Shown: positions 15,795 to 25,767 of the stretch, one piece after another
Layout of the letters: the number at the start of each line of letters is the position of its first letter
Numbering within the stretch: position 1 is the first letter of the stretch
DNA from: an uncultured Alphaproteobacteria bacterium
GTDB taxonomy: Bacteria; Pseudomonadota; Alphaproteobacteria; RF32; CAG-239
Direction of reading: 5' to 3'
DNA: 41,005 nucleotides
NCBI GenBank assembly: GCA_947588655.1
Contig: CANPYS010000016.1
Span: forward strand, 1 to 41,005
Program-made: the position numbers and the translations under genes
The notes under the pieces: model-generated
The model's input: only the letters and a program-made list of their open reading frames with translations
Databases searched by the model: none
Told to the model about the DNA's origin: nothing

Positions 15795-16334
15795 ATGAAA
15801 AGATACCTGTCGCTGATTTGTTTGATACTGATAACGAGCAAAGCTTTTGCTGAAGAAATACCGGAGGAATTTCAAAACCCGATTTTTAATAACATTCTTT
15901 GGTCAGAAAATTATAATCTGACAAACCATATGCGCCTGACGCCAAAATATACTTATGATTTGGAAAATCCACGTGGTAATTATAAGACCACATATATAGC
16001 GGAATCAGATAAGGCCGTTTTGGTTAAATATTATGGAGAAGGTTTTGCAAAAGATAACGTCTCTTATGAGATGTATTTGATTCGTTATAAATATTATTTA
16101 CCATGGGAAAAAAGATTTAGATGTCTTGTTTGGCAATGCATCTTTGACATCAGAAACGGTGTATTTAATCCTAAATACGATATTTCCCAAAATATATACT
16201 CAAGCGACCTGCCTTGTCCTGATGAAGAAGAAAGATATACGGAAAATACGGAAGCGCCTAGGATAGATTGTCTGGAAGAACTCCGCCGCCTCGGTTGGGA
16301 TAAATACATCAAAGCTGAGGAAAAAAAGAAATGA
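15795..16334 (+). CDS. Exported putative immunity protein, copy 1
   Basis: A 179-aa product with a Sec signal peptide (1-19, cleavage likely after AFA), so periplasmic. Conserved mature features are PIFNNILW, NYNLTNHMRLTP, YDLENPRG, ESDKA, VWQC, NGVFNPKY and SSDLPCPDE. Four conserved cysteines (110, 115, 141, 159) would allow two disulfides. I do not recognise the family; it is not obviously MliC, PliI, PliG or Ivy. It has its own good ribosome site (AAGGAG, 15782-15787). Position behind a muramidase gene suggests a lysozyme inhibitor or immunity role (inference). Its stop overlaps the next start as ATGA. Confidence 0.7.
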   Translation: MKRYLSLICLILITSKAFAEEIPEEFQNPIFNNILWSENYNLTNHMRLTPKYTYDLENPRGNYKTTYIAESDKAVLVKYYGEGFAKDNVSYEMYLIRYKYYLPWEKRFRCLVWQCIFDIRNGVFNPKYDISQNIYSSDLPCPDEEERYTENTEAPRIDCLEELRRLGWDKYIKAEEKKK

Positions 16335-16870
16335 AAAGATACCTGTTGCTGATTTGTTTAATCTTGATAACAAGCAAAGTTTTTGCGGAAGAAGTTCCCG
16401 AGGAATTTAAAAACCCAATTTTTAATAACATTCTTTGGTCAGAAAATTACAATCTAACAAACCATATGCGCTTGACGCCAAGCTTTAGTTATGATTTAGA
16501 AAACCCACGTGGCGATCGTAAGTGCACATATGTGACGGAGTCAGACAAGGCAATCTTGCTTAAACATTATGGAAAAGGTTTTGCAAAAGATACCGTTGTA
16601 TATGAATTATATTTGAATCGTTATAAATATTTTTTACGTTGGGAAAAAAGATATAGATGTCTTGTTTGGCAATGTTTTTTTGACATCAGAAACGGTGTAT
16701 TTAATCCTAAATACGATATTTCCCAAAATATATACTCAAGCGACCTGCCTTGTCCTGATGAAGAAGAAAGATATACGGAAAATACGGAAGCGCCTAGGAT
16801 AGATTGTCTGGAAGAACTCCGCCGCCTCGGTTGGGATAAATACATCACTTCAGAGGAAAAAAAGAAATGA
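16331..16870 (+). CDS. Exported putative immunity protein, copy 2
   Basis: A 179-aa paralogue of copy 1, exactly 536 nt downstream and overlapping it by 4 nt (ATGA), so probably translated by coupling with GAGG at the end of copy 1. Its last third is almost identical to copy 1 (including EEERYTENTEAPRIDCLEE). Its middle (SFSYDLENPRGDRKCTYVTESDK) matches copy 4 instead. It has an extra cysteine in RKCTYV. Signal peptide ends VFA. The mosaic pattern points to exchange between copies. Confidence 0.7.
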   Translation: MKRYLLLICLILITSKVFAEEVPEEFKNPIFNNILWSENYNLTNHMRLTPSFSYDLENPRGDRKCTYVTESDKAILLKHYGKGFAKDTVVYELYLNRYKYFLRWEKRYRCLVWQCFFDIRNGVFNPKYDISQNIYSSDLPCPDEEERYTENTEAPRIDCLEELRRLGWDKYITSEEKKK

Positions 16871-17406
16871 AAAGATACCTGTTGCTGATTTGTTTGATAT
16901 TGATAACAAGCAAAGCTTTTGCTGAAGAAGTTCCGGAAAAATTTAAAAACCCGATTTTTAATAACATTCTTTGGTCAGAAAATTATAATCTGACAAACCA
17001 TATGCGCCTGACACCAAACTATACTTATGATTTAGAAAATCCGCGTGGCAATTATAAGACCACATATATAGCGGAATCAGATAAGGCTGTTTTGGTTAAA
17101 TATTATGGAGAAGGCTTTGCCAAAAATAACGTCTCATACGAGTTATATTTTATTCATGAAAAATATTATTTGTCACGGGAAAAAAGATATAGATGTAATG
17201 TTTGGCAATGCATCTTTGACATCAAAAACGGTGTATTTAATCCAAAATACGATATTTCCCAAAATATATACTCAAGCGACCTGCCTTGCCCCGATGAGAA
17301 AGTAGAGGATCTGAGCATTATAGGAAAACCCGATCCGGATTGCCTGGAAGAACTCCGTCGCCTCGGTTGGGATAAATACATCACTTCAGAGGAAAAAAAG
17401 AAATGA
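16867..17406 (+). CDS. Exported putative immunity protein, copy 3
   Basis: A 179-aa paralogue, again 536 nt further on with a 4-nt ATGA overlap. Its middle (YTYDLENPRGNYKTTYIAE) matches copy 1, while its FIHEKYYL segment matches copy 4. Residues 142-157 (DEKVEDLSIIGKPDPD) differ from copies 1 and 2, marking a variable region between the third and fourth conserved cysteines, possibly the surface that faces the enzyme. Confidence 0.7.
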   Translation: MKRYLLLICLILITSKAFAEEVPEKFKNPIFNNILWSENYNLTNHMRLTPNYTYDLENPRGNYKTTYIAESDKAVLVKYYGEGFAKNNVSYELYFIHEKYYLSREKRYRCNVWQCIFDIKNGVFNPKYDISQNIYSSDLPCPDEKVEDLSIIGKPDPDCLEELRRLGWDKYITSEEKKK

Positions 17407-17942
17407 AAAGATACCTGTCGCTGATTTGTTTGATCTTGATAACAAGCAAAGTTTTTGCGGAAGAAGCTCCGGAAGAATTTAAAAACCCAATTTTTAACAA
17501 CATTCTTTGGTCGGGTAACTACAATTTAACAAACCATATGCGCTTGACGCCAAGCTTTAGTTATGATTTAGAAAATCCGCGTGGCGATCATAAGTGCACA
17601 TATGTGACGGAATCAGATAAGGCGGTTTTAATTAAATATTATGGGGAAGGTTTTGCCAAAGATAACGTTACATACGAGTTATATTTTATTCATGAAAAAT
17701 ATTATTTACCATGGGAAAAAAGATATAGATGCATTGTTTGGCAATGCGTTTTTGATATTAAGAACGGTGTATTTAATCCAAAATACAATATTTCCGAATA
17801 TATATACTCAAGCGACCTGCCTTGCCCCGATGAAAAAGAAGAAGAGTATCTAGCATATTTAAAACCCGCCCCTGATTGTCTAGAAGAACTCCGCCGCCTC
17901 CGTTGGGATAAATACATCAAAGCTGAGGAAAAACGGTTATAA
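17403..17942 (+). CDS. Exported putative immunity protein, copy 4
   Basis: The last 179-aa paralogue, overlapping copy 3 by ATGA. It shares SFSYDLENPRGD and RKC-like HKCTYVTESDK with copy 2 and FIHEKYYL with copy 3. The variable region reads DEKEEEYLAYLKPAPD, and it ends EEKRL rather than EEKKK. It is the most divergent copy in the tail (NISEYIYSS, LRWDKY). It ends 14 nt before the convergent pyruvyl transferase gene; no clear terminator was seen. Confidence 0.7.
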   Translation: MKRYLSLICLILITSKVFAEEAPEEFKNPIFNNILWSGNYNLTNHMRLTPSFSYDLENPRGDHKCTYVTESDKAVLIKYYGEGFAKDNVTYELYFIHEKYYLPWEKRYRCIVWQCVFDIKNGVFNPKYNISEYIYSSDLPCPDEKEEEYLAYLKPAPDCLEELRRLRWDKYIKAEEKRL

Positions 17943-17956
17943 ATTTTCCGTGAAAA

Positions 17957-19106
17957 TCAGCGACGTTTGCCCTTTTGTTTTTTATAACGGATATGTATAA
18001 AGCCAAATAAAACGATATGTCGTTTAAAACCGCTTTTATATTTCTTAAAAAAATGAAATCTCGGTAATGTCAATGGTGTATCCGGACGTGATAAATTGGC
18101 GCCTTTGTGTTCACATTCTTTAAAATGCACACTTTTACTGTGCGTAAACGCAAGACAGAGTTTTTTAAGATGCTTGGCATATTTTTTATAAGCTTCGCTG
18201 TTGATGACAAGACCTTGCGCATCTTTTAAAACCCTTATTTCAAATTTCCCTTGTTCGTTTTCTCCGATGCAGTTAAGCAAAGAAACAATGCCACGAAATC
18301 TTTTGTAATCAAAAGAAGGTGCAATCAAAATCACAGGTGTCCCTAGTGCCAAGCAGGGTAGGGCGCAGTGAATATTTTGTGTAATGACCAGCTTGGCGCG
18401 GGCATAATCTTTAATCAGTCGCTCTGCCTCGCGCAGACTTCCTTCGGGATCTGTATTGAGCGGATAGTGATGACTGCGATATAAAAGTTGACAATCAGGA
18501 TATTTTTTCAAAATTTTTTTAACCGCGCCGTCAATTTTATAATTTTTCCCTAAAGCGTAGTCTACAAAAAATATATTATTATGACGTTCACTCTCCTTGA
18601 CGCGGTACGTCTCGCCCAAAGTCAAAGTTAGACAACCGGAAAAATAAGCCTCAATATGGTGTTTTTTCAAAAAATCGCGCGTTTGATAATCGCGACACCC
18701 GATAGGTTCGTGTTTTTTGAGATAATCTAAAGTTTTTTGTGTTACATTTTGCAAATTATTGATATGAAAAGACACAAACAAAGGATGAAAACGCTCTGAA
18801 AAAGCCTGATTACCACGCCATAAAAAATACCATGCGTTCATAATCAGATTTATTTGATTTCCCTGGTAAAATGAAAGCCTATCTCGGTCAATATAAACAT
18901 CTATTTGATTAAAAAACTGCCTTGCCGCTAAAGATTGAATATAGTCGCCAATATTCATATACGGCGGATTATAATAGCCCTTTTCTGATTGAGCATTGTT
19001 ATAGGTATAAATAAGCAGGCCGTTTTTCTTGAATGGGGGGGGGTAGAGAAGATTGTGCCTGCGTCAGCATTTGCAAATGTTTCAAGGCAAGTTGTTTATC
19101 AGTCAT
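17957..19106 (-). CDS. Polysaccharide pyruvyl transferase family protein, OFF phase (frame broken at C9 tract)
   Basis: Proteins of this family (CsaB/WcaK-like) add ketal pyruvate to surface glycans or act as related glycan-modifying enzymes. The natural start is ATG at 19106 with AAGGAT upstream. In this sequence a run of nine C (19035-19043, minus-strand reading) shifts the frame and stops translation after 35 codons. With eight C the frame reads on as LLIYTYNNAQ...NPPYMNIGDYIQSLAARQF, an expected family N-terminus, giving 382 aa. The downstream frame is intact, starting at an internal ATG (18958), and has the family motif GCRDYQTRDFL...SGCLTLTL and the LVITQNIHCALPCLALGTPVI region. A basic C-terminal tail suggests membrane association. 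The gene is probably phase-variable. Confidence 0.72.
19035..19043. repeat. Poly-G/C tract (9 nt), contingency site
   Basis: Nine G on the plus strand (C on the coding strand) at codon 22-24 of the pyruvyl transferase gene. Such tracts slip during replication and switch genes on and off. Eight C would restore the full frame. Confidence 0.75.
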
Positions 19107-23523: not shown

Positions 23524-24417
23524 TTAAATTTTCTCTTTTAGGCGGTTAGTGAGTTTAAGCGCGCCTGAAAAATTTAAGTGCGCACCGTCATAAAAATCAT
23601 CATTCTCAAAGCCTTTTGAAAAATCTAAGACATTAATTTCAAGTTGTTGACAAATTTTGTGAAGAGGCGCATAAAGCTTTTTGTGCGAATATCCCAAATC
23701 CTGGCATACTTTATTATAATCCGAACGTGTCGGTGCAATAAGAACCTGAAACCGAATCTGATTTTGTTTGCAAAGCGCGGCAATTTTTTCCAAATAAATC
23801 CACTGATTGTTAAAACTTTCAAAAAGATGAACATGTTTTGTGGCGGCCGCCTGACAGTCGCCTTGCTTTTCTTTGGCATATGTAATGCCTGCAAAGTCGT
23901 AGCCTCCAACAGTTCTTATGCCTTTCATAGTTTTTATTTTTTGGACGCGTTTATAAATTTTATTTAGGTTATATTTTTTATTCAAAGAAAAATCATAAGG
24001 AATATCAAAATATTTTTTTAAAAAAAGGCATTCCCAACAATCTTTTGTATAAACCAAGCAACTTCCGCCATTATAATACGATAAAACCAAAATCAAATTT
24101 TTTATTTTAGGCATTGCGCCAAGAAGTTTTTTAAAAATGTGATAGTCTTCAAACAAACCTATGGAAGATATGCCCATATTAAATGTGTTTGGATTAAGAA
24201 TAAAGGGTAAAATATTAAGTTGTGCCCGAGAAGCGCCTAAAATAAGTGTCTCAATAGTTTTGGACTTTTGCTTAAATTCTTGACATTTCTCTTCCAAGAT
24301 AGAAGCAAAACATTTATACTCATCCCGCTTTTCGGGCATGAGTTTATATTTTAATAAACGGCGAATCTTTTTGTTAGGTACTAAGTTGCAAATTAATCTT
24401 CTTAAAAATTCCGGCAT
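23524..24417 (-). CDS. SGNH-hydrolase-like protein, possible glycan acyl-modifying enzyme
   Basis: The 297-aa product has LILGASRAQLNI (58-69) in the position of the SGNH block I serine (Ser63), and FYDGAHLNFSGALKL (275-289) with Asp277 and His280, the DxxH of block V. This resembles the DltD/AlgJ-like group that moves or removes acyl groups on glycans. There is no signal peptide; the N-terminus is basic and amphipathic (RRLICNLVPNKKIRRLLKYK), perhaps membrane-associated. Seen: motifs. Inferred: a role in surface polysaccharide modification, in line with the nearby fucosyltransferase and pyruvyl transferase. The gene begins 25 nt past the terminator of a structured RNA. Confidence 0.6.
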   Translation of the reverse strand: MPEFLRRLICNLVPNKKIRRLLKYKLMPEKRDEYKCFASILEEKCQEFKQKSKTIETLILGASRAQLNILPFILNPNTFNMGISSIGLFEDYHIFKKLLGAMPKIKNLILVLSYYNGGSCLVYTKDCWECLFLKKYFDIPYDFSLNKKYNLNKIYKRVQKIKTMKGIRTVGGYDFAGITYAKEKQGDCQAAATKHVHLFESFNNQWIYLEKIAALCKQNQIRFQVLIAPTRSDYNKVCQDLGYSHKKLYAPLHKICQQLEINVLDFSKGFENDDFYDGAHLNFSGALKLTNRLKEKI

Positions 24418-24782: not shown

Positions 24783-25739
24783 TTACTTTAATTTTTGACG
24801 AAGTTCTTTCCTTTTGCGAGAAGAGGGAACAAAGTTGATAAAAAACTTTTTGAGTTTATACGAAAACCTCTTTTTTCTAAAATTTTCCATAAAAGGGACA
24901 ATCGTTTCTTTCTCTAAAGATAAGAAAATGCATTTATTAAAGTAGTCTTTCAAATCAAGAGCTATCAAGGGATTGATAAAATAGCCTTCATTTTTTGATA
25001 AGATGCGAGCAAAGCGTCCAAAACTTCCTTTGCTTGCAATAAAATGTTGGCATTTAGTCATCAGGTACAAATCCAAATAACCTTTGTCTGAGCCGTTTTG
25101 TTCACAGATTTTATACGCCAGATTTTGCGGTAATTGAGGAATTAAAAAATCATTGACCCAAGACATTTCATCTGAAAAGAAATAAAATTTCACCTTTGGA
25201 ACAAGGGCGTTTATAATTTTTATGGCACTAATAAAATATTCTTCCGAACAGGGGCGCCCATAGCCAGTGTCTGTGTGCATAGCCAAGTCGCCACGACGAA
25301 CATGCACAGCGCAGGAGCAATGTGCGCATATATCGTCTAAAGTTGTTTGAATTGCCTTCAAATCAGATTGGGGGGGGGTAAAGCGTTCGGCAAAAGTTGT
25401 TCTGTTCTCAAGCAGATATTTCATGCCGCTTGGATAACCGTCCAAATAAAGAGGAGATTTCATTTTAAATATATTATTCGTTTTTTTAGGATATTTTTTA
25501 GAATAATACTTAATTTCATCGTGTGTTGCTTCTTCAAATGGAAGTGAAGGAAAGGCTTTCAATAAATCAAAATTTCTGGCAAAGCGTCCGTCCATATCTA
25601 AGCCGTCGGTTTCAAACCAAGTTAAATCAAATTTAACATGGTAATTTTGGCTCATAAAATATGCGCCAATCGCATAAAAATTTATTTGAGAAGATATGCC
25701 GCCGTCAACGCGAACAATAATCAAATCATCTTTTTTCAT
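24783..25739 (-). CDS. Alpha-1,2-fucosyltransferase family protein (GT11), phase-variable
   Basis: GT11 enzymes transfer L-fucose from GDP-fucose onto galactose-containing glycans. The second of two adjacent ATGs (25739) is better placed after CGGAG. The 318-aa product has VRVDGGISSQINFYAIGAYF near the N-terminus, the GDP-fucose motif VHVRRGD in the middle, FYFFSDEMSWV, and a strongly basic C-terminus (SSRKRKELRQKLK) suited to membrane contact. A run of nine C (25370-25378) encodes Thr-Pro-Pro and keeps the frame, so this copy is ON; loss or gain of one base would truncate the protein before HxRRGD. It has its own promoter. Confidence 0.82.
   Translation of the reverse strand: MKKDDLIIVRVDGGISSQINFYAIGAYFMSQNYHVKFDLTWFETDGLDMDGRFARNFDLLKAFPSLPFEEATHDEIKYYSKKYPKKTNNIFKMKSPLYLDGYPSGMKYLLENRTTFAERFTPPQSDLKAIQTTLDDICAHCSCAVHVRRGDLAMHTDTGYGRPCSEEYFISAIKIINALVPKVKFYFFSDEMSWVNDFLIPQLPQNLAYKICEQNGSDKGYLDLYLMTKCQHFIASKGSFGRFARILSKNEGYFINPLIALDLKDYFNKCIFLSLEKETIVPFMENFRKKRFSYKLKKFFINFVPSSRKRKELRQKLK
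25370..25378. repeat. Poly-G/C tract (9 nt) in the fucosyltransferase gene
   Basis: Nine consecutive G on the plus strand within codons for RFTPPQ. It has the same length and kind as the tract that breaks the pyruvyl transferase gene, but here the frame is open. Confidence 0.75.
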
Positions 25740-25767
25740 CATAAGCTCCGAATAAAATACTTCAAAA

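Follow-up and report, generated by a model that had tools for sequence, protein, structure and literature searches.

A nine-base C tract in a divergent GT11 glycosyltransferase gene, a probable contingency locus within a genome-wide set of poly-G/C tracts in an uncultured alphaproteobacterium

A run of nine C residues within a GT11-family glycosyltransferase gene of an uncultured alphaproteobacterium is probably a simple-sequence contingency locus that switches a surface-sugar transferase. The run lies in a window of 41,005 nucleotides, which is the whole of contig 16 of the assembly, and it belongs to a genome-wide set of such tracts. Phase variation by slippage is well supported for the tract set and very probably extends to the focal tract. 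The mechanism is already known; the lineage and an ABO-type gene module are new, and the genome-wide tract set together with the tract-bearing GT11-GT6 pair is more interesting than the single focal tract.

The C9 tract and its reading frame

The focal gene occupies positions 24783 to 25742 of the minus strand and encodes 319 amino acids in an open reading frame (ORF) that runs unbroken through the tract, i.e., in the ON state. The tract, at 25370 to 25378, reads GGGGGGGGG (nine G) on the plus strand and C9 on the coding strand, where it contributes in frame to codons 122 to 125 (ACC CCC CCC CAA, or TPPQ). The codons of the donor-binding motif HVRRGD (residues 147 to 152; 25287 to 25304, minus strand) lie downstream of it, as stated in the first-pass annotation, which had described an in-frame nine-base C tract ahead of this motif. 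The tract is a homopolymer of at least eight bases within a coding frame, and the gain or loss of one base shifts that frame. The computed products were 125, 127, 126, and 128 residues for tract lengths of 7, 8, 10, and 11, respectively, and the full-length GT11 protein (319 to 320 residues) for lengths of 9 and 12; the earlier claim that slippage would cut the protein ahead of the donor-binding motif is therefore correct. In the predicted structure, the tract falls in a loop between two helices, directly before the strand leading into HVRRGD, so that slippage would remove the second half of the enzyme.

Under the proposed mechanism, slipped-strand mispairing during replication would change the length of the C9 run by one or two bases. 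Multiples of three (9 or 12) would give the complete enzyme, other lengths would leave a stub of 125 to 128 residues comprising the N-terminal domain without the donor-binding domain, and individual cells would gain or lose this surface-sugar transferase at random.

At the corresponding site, the DNA of relatives encodes FKPVDL or FKPIDL, with one Pro retained and without poly-C, and the tract was thus gained in this lineage. The first-pass annotation had held that Pro codons conserved without poly-C would speak against a switch; the relatives do keep one such Pro, but the switch is not refuted thereby.

Within the window, five positions matched C runs of eight or longer, versus 0.22 expected, and none of 100 dinucleotide shuffles reached five. 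The "identical" tract mentioned in the first-pass annotation does exist: it is a C9 run at 19035 to 19043 (minus strand) within an OFF-state gene for a polysaccharide pyruvyl transferase, with 28 codons before the frameshift, and the ORF downstream of it (17957 to 18958, minus strand) matches PF04230 with an E value of 7e-18. A third tract, absent from that annotation, is a poly-G at the contig end (40998 to 41005, plus strand), shortly after a TTGACA hexamer; it is possibly a promoter-spacer tract cut off by the contig end, resembling one on contig C3 that is described below.

Downstream of the GT11 gene lies a gene of unassigned family (23524 to 24417, minus strand), for which Pfam gave no match and which has a 28%-identical homolog near the GT11 gene of a rumen relative (L015). 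Elsewhere in the window, positions 15795 to 17942 (plus strand) hold four tandem paralogs of 179 amino acids, 78 to 85% identical to the first; each overlaps the next by ATGA and has a signal-peptide-like N terminus, and a Pfam search with one of the four gave no match.

Family and fold of the encoded enzyme

The assignment of the focal protein to GT11 is supported by Pfam (PF01531; E value, 7.3e-16; 58.7 bits versus a gathering score of 23.9). The HxRRGD donor motif is present, and its H, R, R, G, and D were invariant in an alignment of 19 sequences. The AlphaFold model had a mean pLDDT of 78.7, with values mostly around 90 across residues 11 to 250, and showed the GT-B fold of the fucosyltransferase superfamily. 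Among its matches to PDB structures, the top 42 entries were all GDP-fucose fucosyltransferases; the best was NodZ (Z score of 15.8, 3.3 Å over 232 residues), followed by POFUT1, plant FUT1, FUT8, and POFUT2. NodZ of Bradyrhizobium is an alpha-1,6-fucosyltransferase, but it shares about 15% identity with the focal protein and belongs to a different family, and the same linkage is not claimed. A sequence search of solved structures with the focal protein gave no match, and none of the NCBIfam models covers it.

The FutC-like motifs GGLGNQ and NS[ST]FSWW, which the majority of other GT11 proteins in this bacterial family have, are missing: GGISSQ and SKGSFG replace the GGLGNQ and NSTFSWW of ordinary GT11 enzymes. 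The focal protein forms a small branch with L015 (from the rumen metagenome-assembled genome RUG791), L046, and L047, which have GGICSQ where that region is covered and lack NSTFSWW. In L047, the GT11 gene lies between genes for FdtA (PF05523; E value, 3e-43) and an acetyltransferase on one side and a DegT aminotransferase on the other, and in L015 it directly follows a DegT-type aminotransferase gene. FdtA and DegT neighbors are typical of aminated deoxysugars. No homolog of FdtA, an enzyme of the dTDP-Fuc3NAc pathway, was found in the present genome. A gmd gene above its curated cutoff is present at C4:63178-64182, along with fcl-like genes, and GDP-fucose can therefore plausibly be made. 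The GT11 family extends to an alpha-1,3 enzyme, HhFT2 from Helicobacter hepaticus (PMC4202792).

The same-genus genome lacks the focal GT11 gene. Two apparent tracts in other genomes were rejected: a seeming frameshift in the G073 homolog was a scaffold gap (N run), and a C9 run close to a GT11 gene in G070 (L054) is not part of the GT11 ORF but falls where the related genome L044 has an intact ORF beside its own GT11 gene.

The focal protein most likely acts on surface polysaccharide as a GDP-fucose-type transferase of GT-B fold, with both donor and acceptor predicted. The earlier assignment to GT11 was upheld, and a GDP-fucose transferase fold is supported, but the FutC-like motifs proved to be missing. 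Because the GT11 branch of this gene is atypical, neither FutC-like activity nor "host-like fucose" follows for it; the proposed host-like fucosylated glycan and the comparison with futC are speculative for this gene, given the divergent motifs and the aminated-sugar genes adjoining two of the three closest relatives.

Poly-G/C tracts across the genome

The whole genome (1,552,048 bases in 55 contigs) was searched. Overlapping match positions and the stretches that were read together gave 51 G/C runs of at least nine bases and 58 of at least eight. Markov models of orders 1 to 5 predicted 0.003 to 0.5 runs of at least nine in the 444 kb read; these stretches were chosen for holding tracts, and the density must therefore be judged on the whole genome, for which the expectation is about 1.7 (order-1 model) or fewer versus the 51 observed. 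The lengths of G/C runs in the 444 kb were bimodal, with 8 runs of six bases, 0 of seven, 3 of eight, 32 of nine, 16 of ten, 2 of eleven, and 1 of twelve; A/T runs fell off smoothly with length. The shares of lengths 9 and 10 among the tracts were 59% and 30%, respectively. Across 49 family genomes, this one had the most tract matches (74 positions), followed by genomes with 20 and 17.

The overrepresented tracts lie mostly in genes for surface glycans and surface structures, among them sugar-nucleotide enzymes and outer-membrane proteins. Pfam matches of tract-bearing ORFs included glycosyltransferases (group 1, GT2, GT6, GT10, and GT11), WbsX, pyruvyl transferases, DegT, and epimerases, as well as hexapeptide acetyltransferases, AlgX-like proteins, methyltransferases, transketolase halves, and ketoacyl synthases; DNA methylases (dcm type and N6/N4 type), an Opa-like beta-barrel, and long proteins of unclear type also carried tracts. 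By reading frame, 22 of 54 tracts were ON and 32 OFF (for the 47 that have substantial ORFs, 21 and 26, respectively); these states were assigned mechanically from the longest frames on either side and may be in error at some loci. Loss of mismatch repair as a cause of high slippage was ruled out, because mutS and mutL are present, both open.

Several individual loci were recorded. A glycan gene island of about 31 kb (C4:33301-64601; L020 and L021) contains 18 G/C tracts of at least eight bases, with gmd inside it, and encodes transketolase halves, ketoacyl synthases, DegT, methyltransferases, and glycosyltransferases. The tracts at L034:6257-6266 and L018:10513-10521 lie in genes for a dcm-type cytosine methylase and an N6/N4 DNA methylase and might confer phase-variable epigenetic control. 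On contig C3, a poly-G (L017:10646-10655) follows TTGACA, with TAGACT at a distance of 16 bases, upstream of the Opa-like beta-barrel gene; by analogy with Neisseria porin genes, it is possibly a promoter-spacer switch.

Length variation at other tracts

Tract length varied elsewhere in the same genome and genus. A stretch of 113 to 115 bases shared by the end of contig 22 and the start of contig 1 is identical save for C12 versus C10; with C12 the frame continues into a canonical GT11 domain, and C10 ends the GT2 protein a few residues past the tract. Likewise, contigs 18 and 36 share 102 to 103 bases at their starts, identical save for C9 versus C10, within a GDP-fucose-synthase-like (fcl-like) gene that scores below the equivalog cutoff and is ON at C18:27-35 (G9; L029) and OFF at C36:68-77 (G10; L035). 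Overall, 6 of 110 contig ends lay within 100 bp of a tract, versus 0.38 expected; four of these six belong to the two overlap junctions, which leaves four independent events (P of about 7e-4). PCR slippage could account for part of the in-assembly length variants, but it does not explain the tracts themselves.

In the same-genus genome (G001, a sister species), orthologs carry tracts at the same places, with lengths of 10 versus 9 at C4_33301 and 10 versus 11 at C22_21802; at C30_10035 both tracts have nine bases, yet one gene is ON and the other OFF through a neighboring base. The first-pass reading of the focal run as a contingency tract is strongly supported by the genome-wide tract set, by two further tracts that differ in length within the assembly, and by the tracts shared with the sister species. 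Both species of the genus also have an intergenic G10 near a tRNA gene (L026:9999-10008, on C13, and L067:3246-3255), followed by about 110 conserved bases, and Rfam found no family in this region beyond the tRNA itself.

A candidate blood-group-like module

On contigs C1 and C22 the gene order is GT2-[tract]-GT11, a GT6 gene with a tract, an AlgX-like gene with a tract, and an ORF that is MBOAT-like by our own reading of the sequence. The first part spans C1:1-942 and C22:22090-23812 (L016 and L030), a GT2-GT11 fusion with the C10/C12 tract in its linker, followed by GT6. A tract-free fusion in another genus (L042) indicates that GT2-GT11 exists as an ordinary protein. The GT6 gene, of the ABO family, carries a G9 tract on the conserved GG codons of GGFNGGG, reading GGG GGG GGG here versus GGT GGA ATT in the relative L083. 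GT6 was present in only 5 of 152 family genomes and adjoins GT11 in G129 and G073. A GT10 gene with a G10 tract lies on C5.

From these sequence features, the host-mimicry idea would fit the canonical, GT2-fused GT11, GT6, and GT10 better than the focal GT11, and the GT2-GT11 and GT6 genes of C1/C22 may constitute a phase-variable blood-group-like module. The genome size and a rumen relative suggest a gut or rumen habitat and membership of the alphaproteobacterial order RF32 (GTDB). We tentatively propose, at somewhat less than even probability, that in this uncultured alphaproteobacterium of the gut or rumen, poly-G/C slippage controls a blood-group-like glycan module in several layers, comprising the fcl-like sugar-nucleotide supply, an H-type GT11 (the GT2-GT11 fusion being made or lost), an A/B-type GT6, and a Lewis-type GT10, with the atypical GT11 of the window as an extra, independent decoration.

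Discussion

The findings can be set beside several known systems. In Helicobacter, fucosyltransferase genes (including futC, a GT11 gene) are listed among the phase-variable lipopolysaccharide genes, and some strains carry an extended C repeat in HP0651 (PMC1599737). The focal locus likewise has a C tract in a GT11 gene but differs in its lineage, its divergent motifs, a specificity that is only predicted, closest relatives without the tract, and the presence of mutS and mutL. In Campylobacter, 52% of poly-G tracts are 9G and 30% are 10G (PMC6321876), and C. jejuni NCTC11168 has 29 poly-G loci (PMC6321876; PMC4965091). Here too, lengths peak at 9 and 10 and many tracts lie in surface genes, whereas this is another lineage, with 51 tracts of at least nine bases in a 1.55-Mb genome that has mutS and mutL. 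GT11 and GT6 enzymes build H, A, or B blood-group structures in Escherichia coli O86 (WbwK, GT11, and WbnI, GT6, the pair making the B structure), Helicobacter mustelae (BgtA), and Bacteroides ovatus (BoGT6a) (PMC4202792). The present genome likewise has an adjacent GT11-GT6 pair on C1/C22, but both of its genes carry G/C tracts, and a tract-bearing linker joins the GT11 to a GT2 ahead of it; the GT11 of the window lies outside this pair.

Three alternative explanations were weighed. The switch may be real and the focal GT11 branch may transfer another sugar, e.g., an aminated 6-deoxy-hexose, in an ordinary polysaccharide without host mimicry, which we regard as rather unlikely. This explanation is favored by the GGISSQ and SKGSFG motifs, shared in kind by the three closest relatives, and by the FdtA, acetyltransferase, and DegT genes of L047 and the DegT-type aminotransferase gene of L015. 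It is at odds with the lack of an FdtA homolog in a genome that has gmd and fcl-like genes. The top structural matches, too, are all users of GDP-fucose, but fold similarity does not by itself establish the donor. That the C9 run is instead an incidental Pro-Pro stretch without switching function is highly improbable: close relatives keep one Pro at this site (FKPVDL or FKPIDL) without a tract, in keeping with that view, but runs of at least nine bases exceed expectation about 30-fold or more with a gap at length 7, and the run was gained, since relatives lack it, as in the GT6 gene versus L083.

The remaining concern is that tract lengths in the assembly are unreliable owing to sequencing or PCR slippage, so that the ON/OFF calls and the two-length junctions are artifacts. 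A C. jejuni tract study found that PCR overestimates the frequency of phase variation 20- to 35-fold (PMC4965091), in line with this concern. However, most tracts were assembled through unbroken, the runs themselves cannot be artifacts, positions are shared with an independently assembled sister species, and the difference between 10 and 12 exceeds a one-base error; we consider this explanation improbable. The favored reading of the focal C9 run stays that of a contingency locus.

Phase variation by poly-G/C tracts is known mainly from pathogens, e.g., Campylobacter, Helicobacter, and Neisseria. A literature search of partial coverage found no paper on it in the present lineage, which is weak evidence of absence. 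The approximately 50 tracts in a genome that keeps its mismatch-repair genes suggest that bet-hedging of this kind arose in an ordinary resident of the gut or rumen as well. The tract-bearing GT11 and GT6 neighbors offer a route to testing whether a commensal switches ABO-like antigens ON and OFF, and such switching would be relevant to how natural anti-A/B antibodies arise and to the evasion of phages or immunity.
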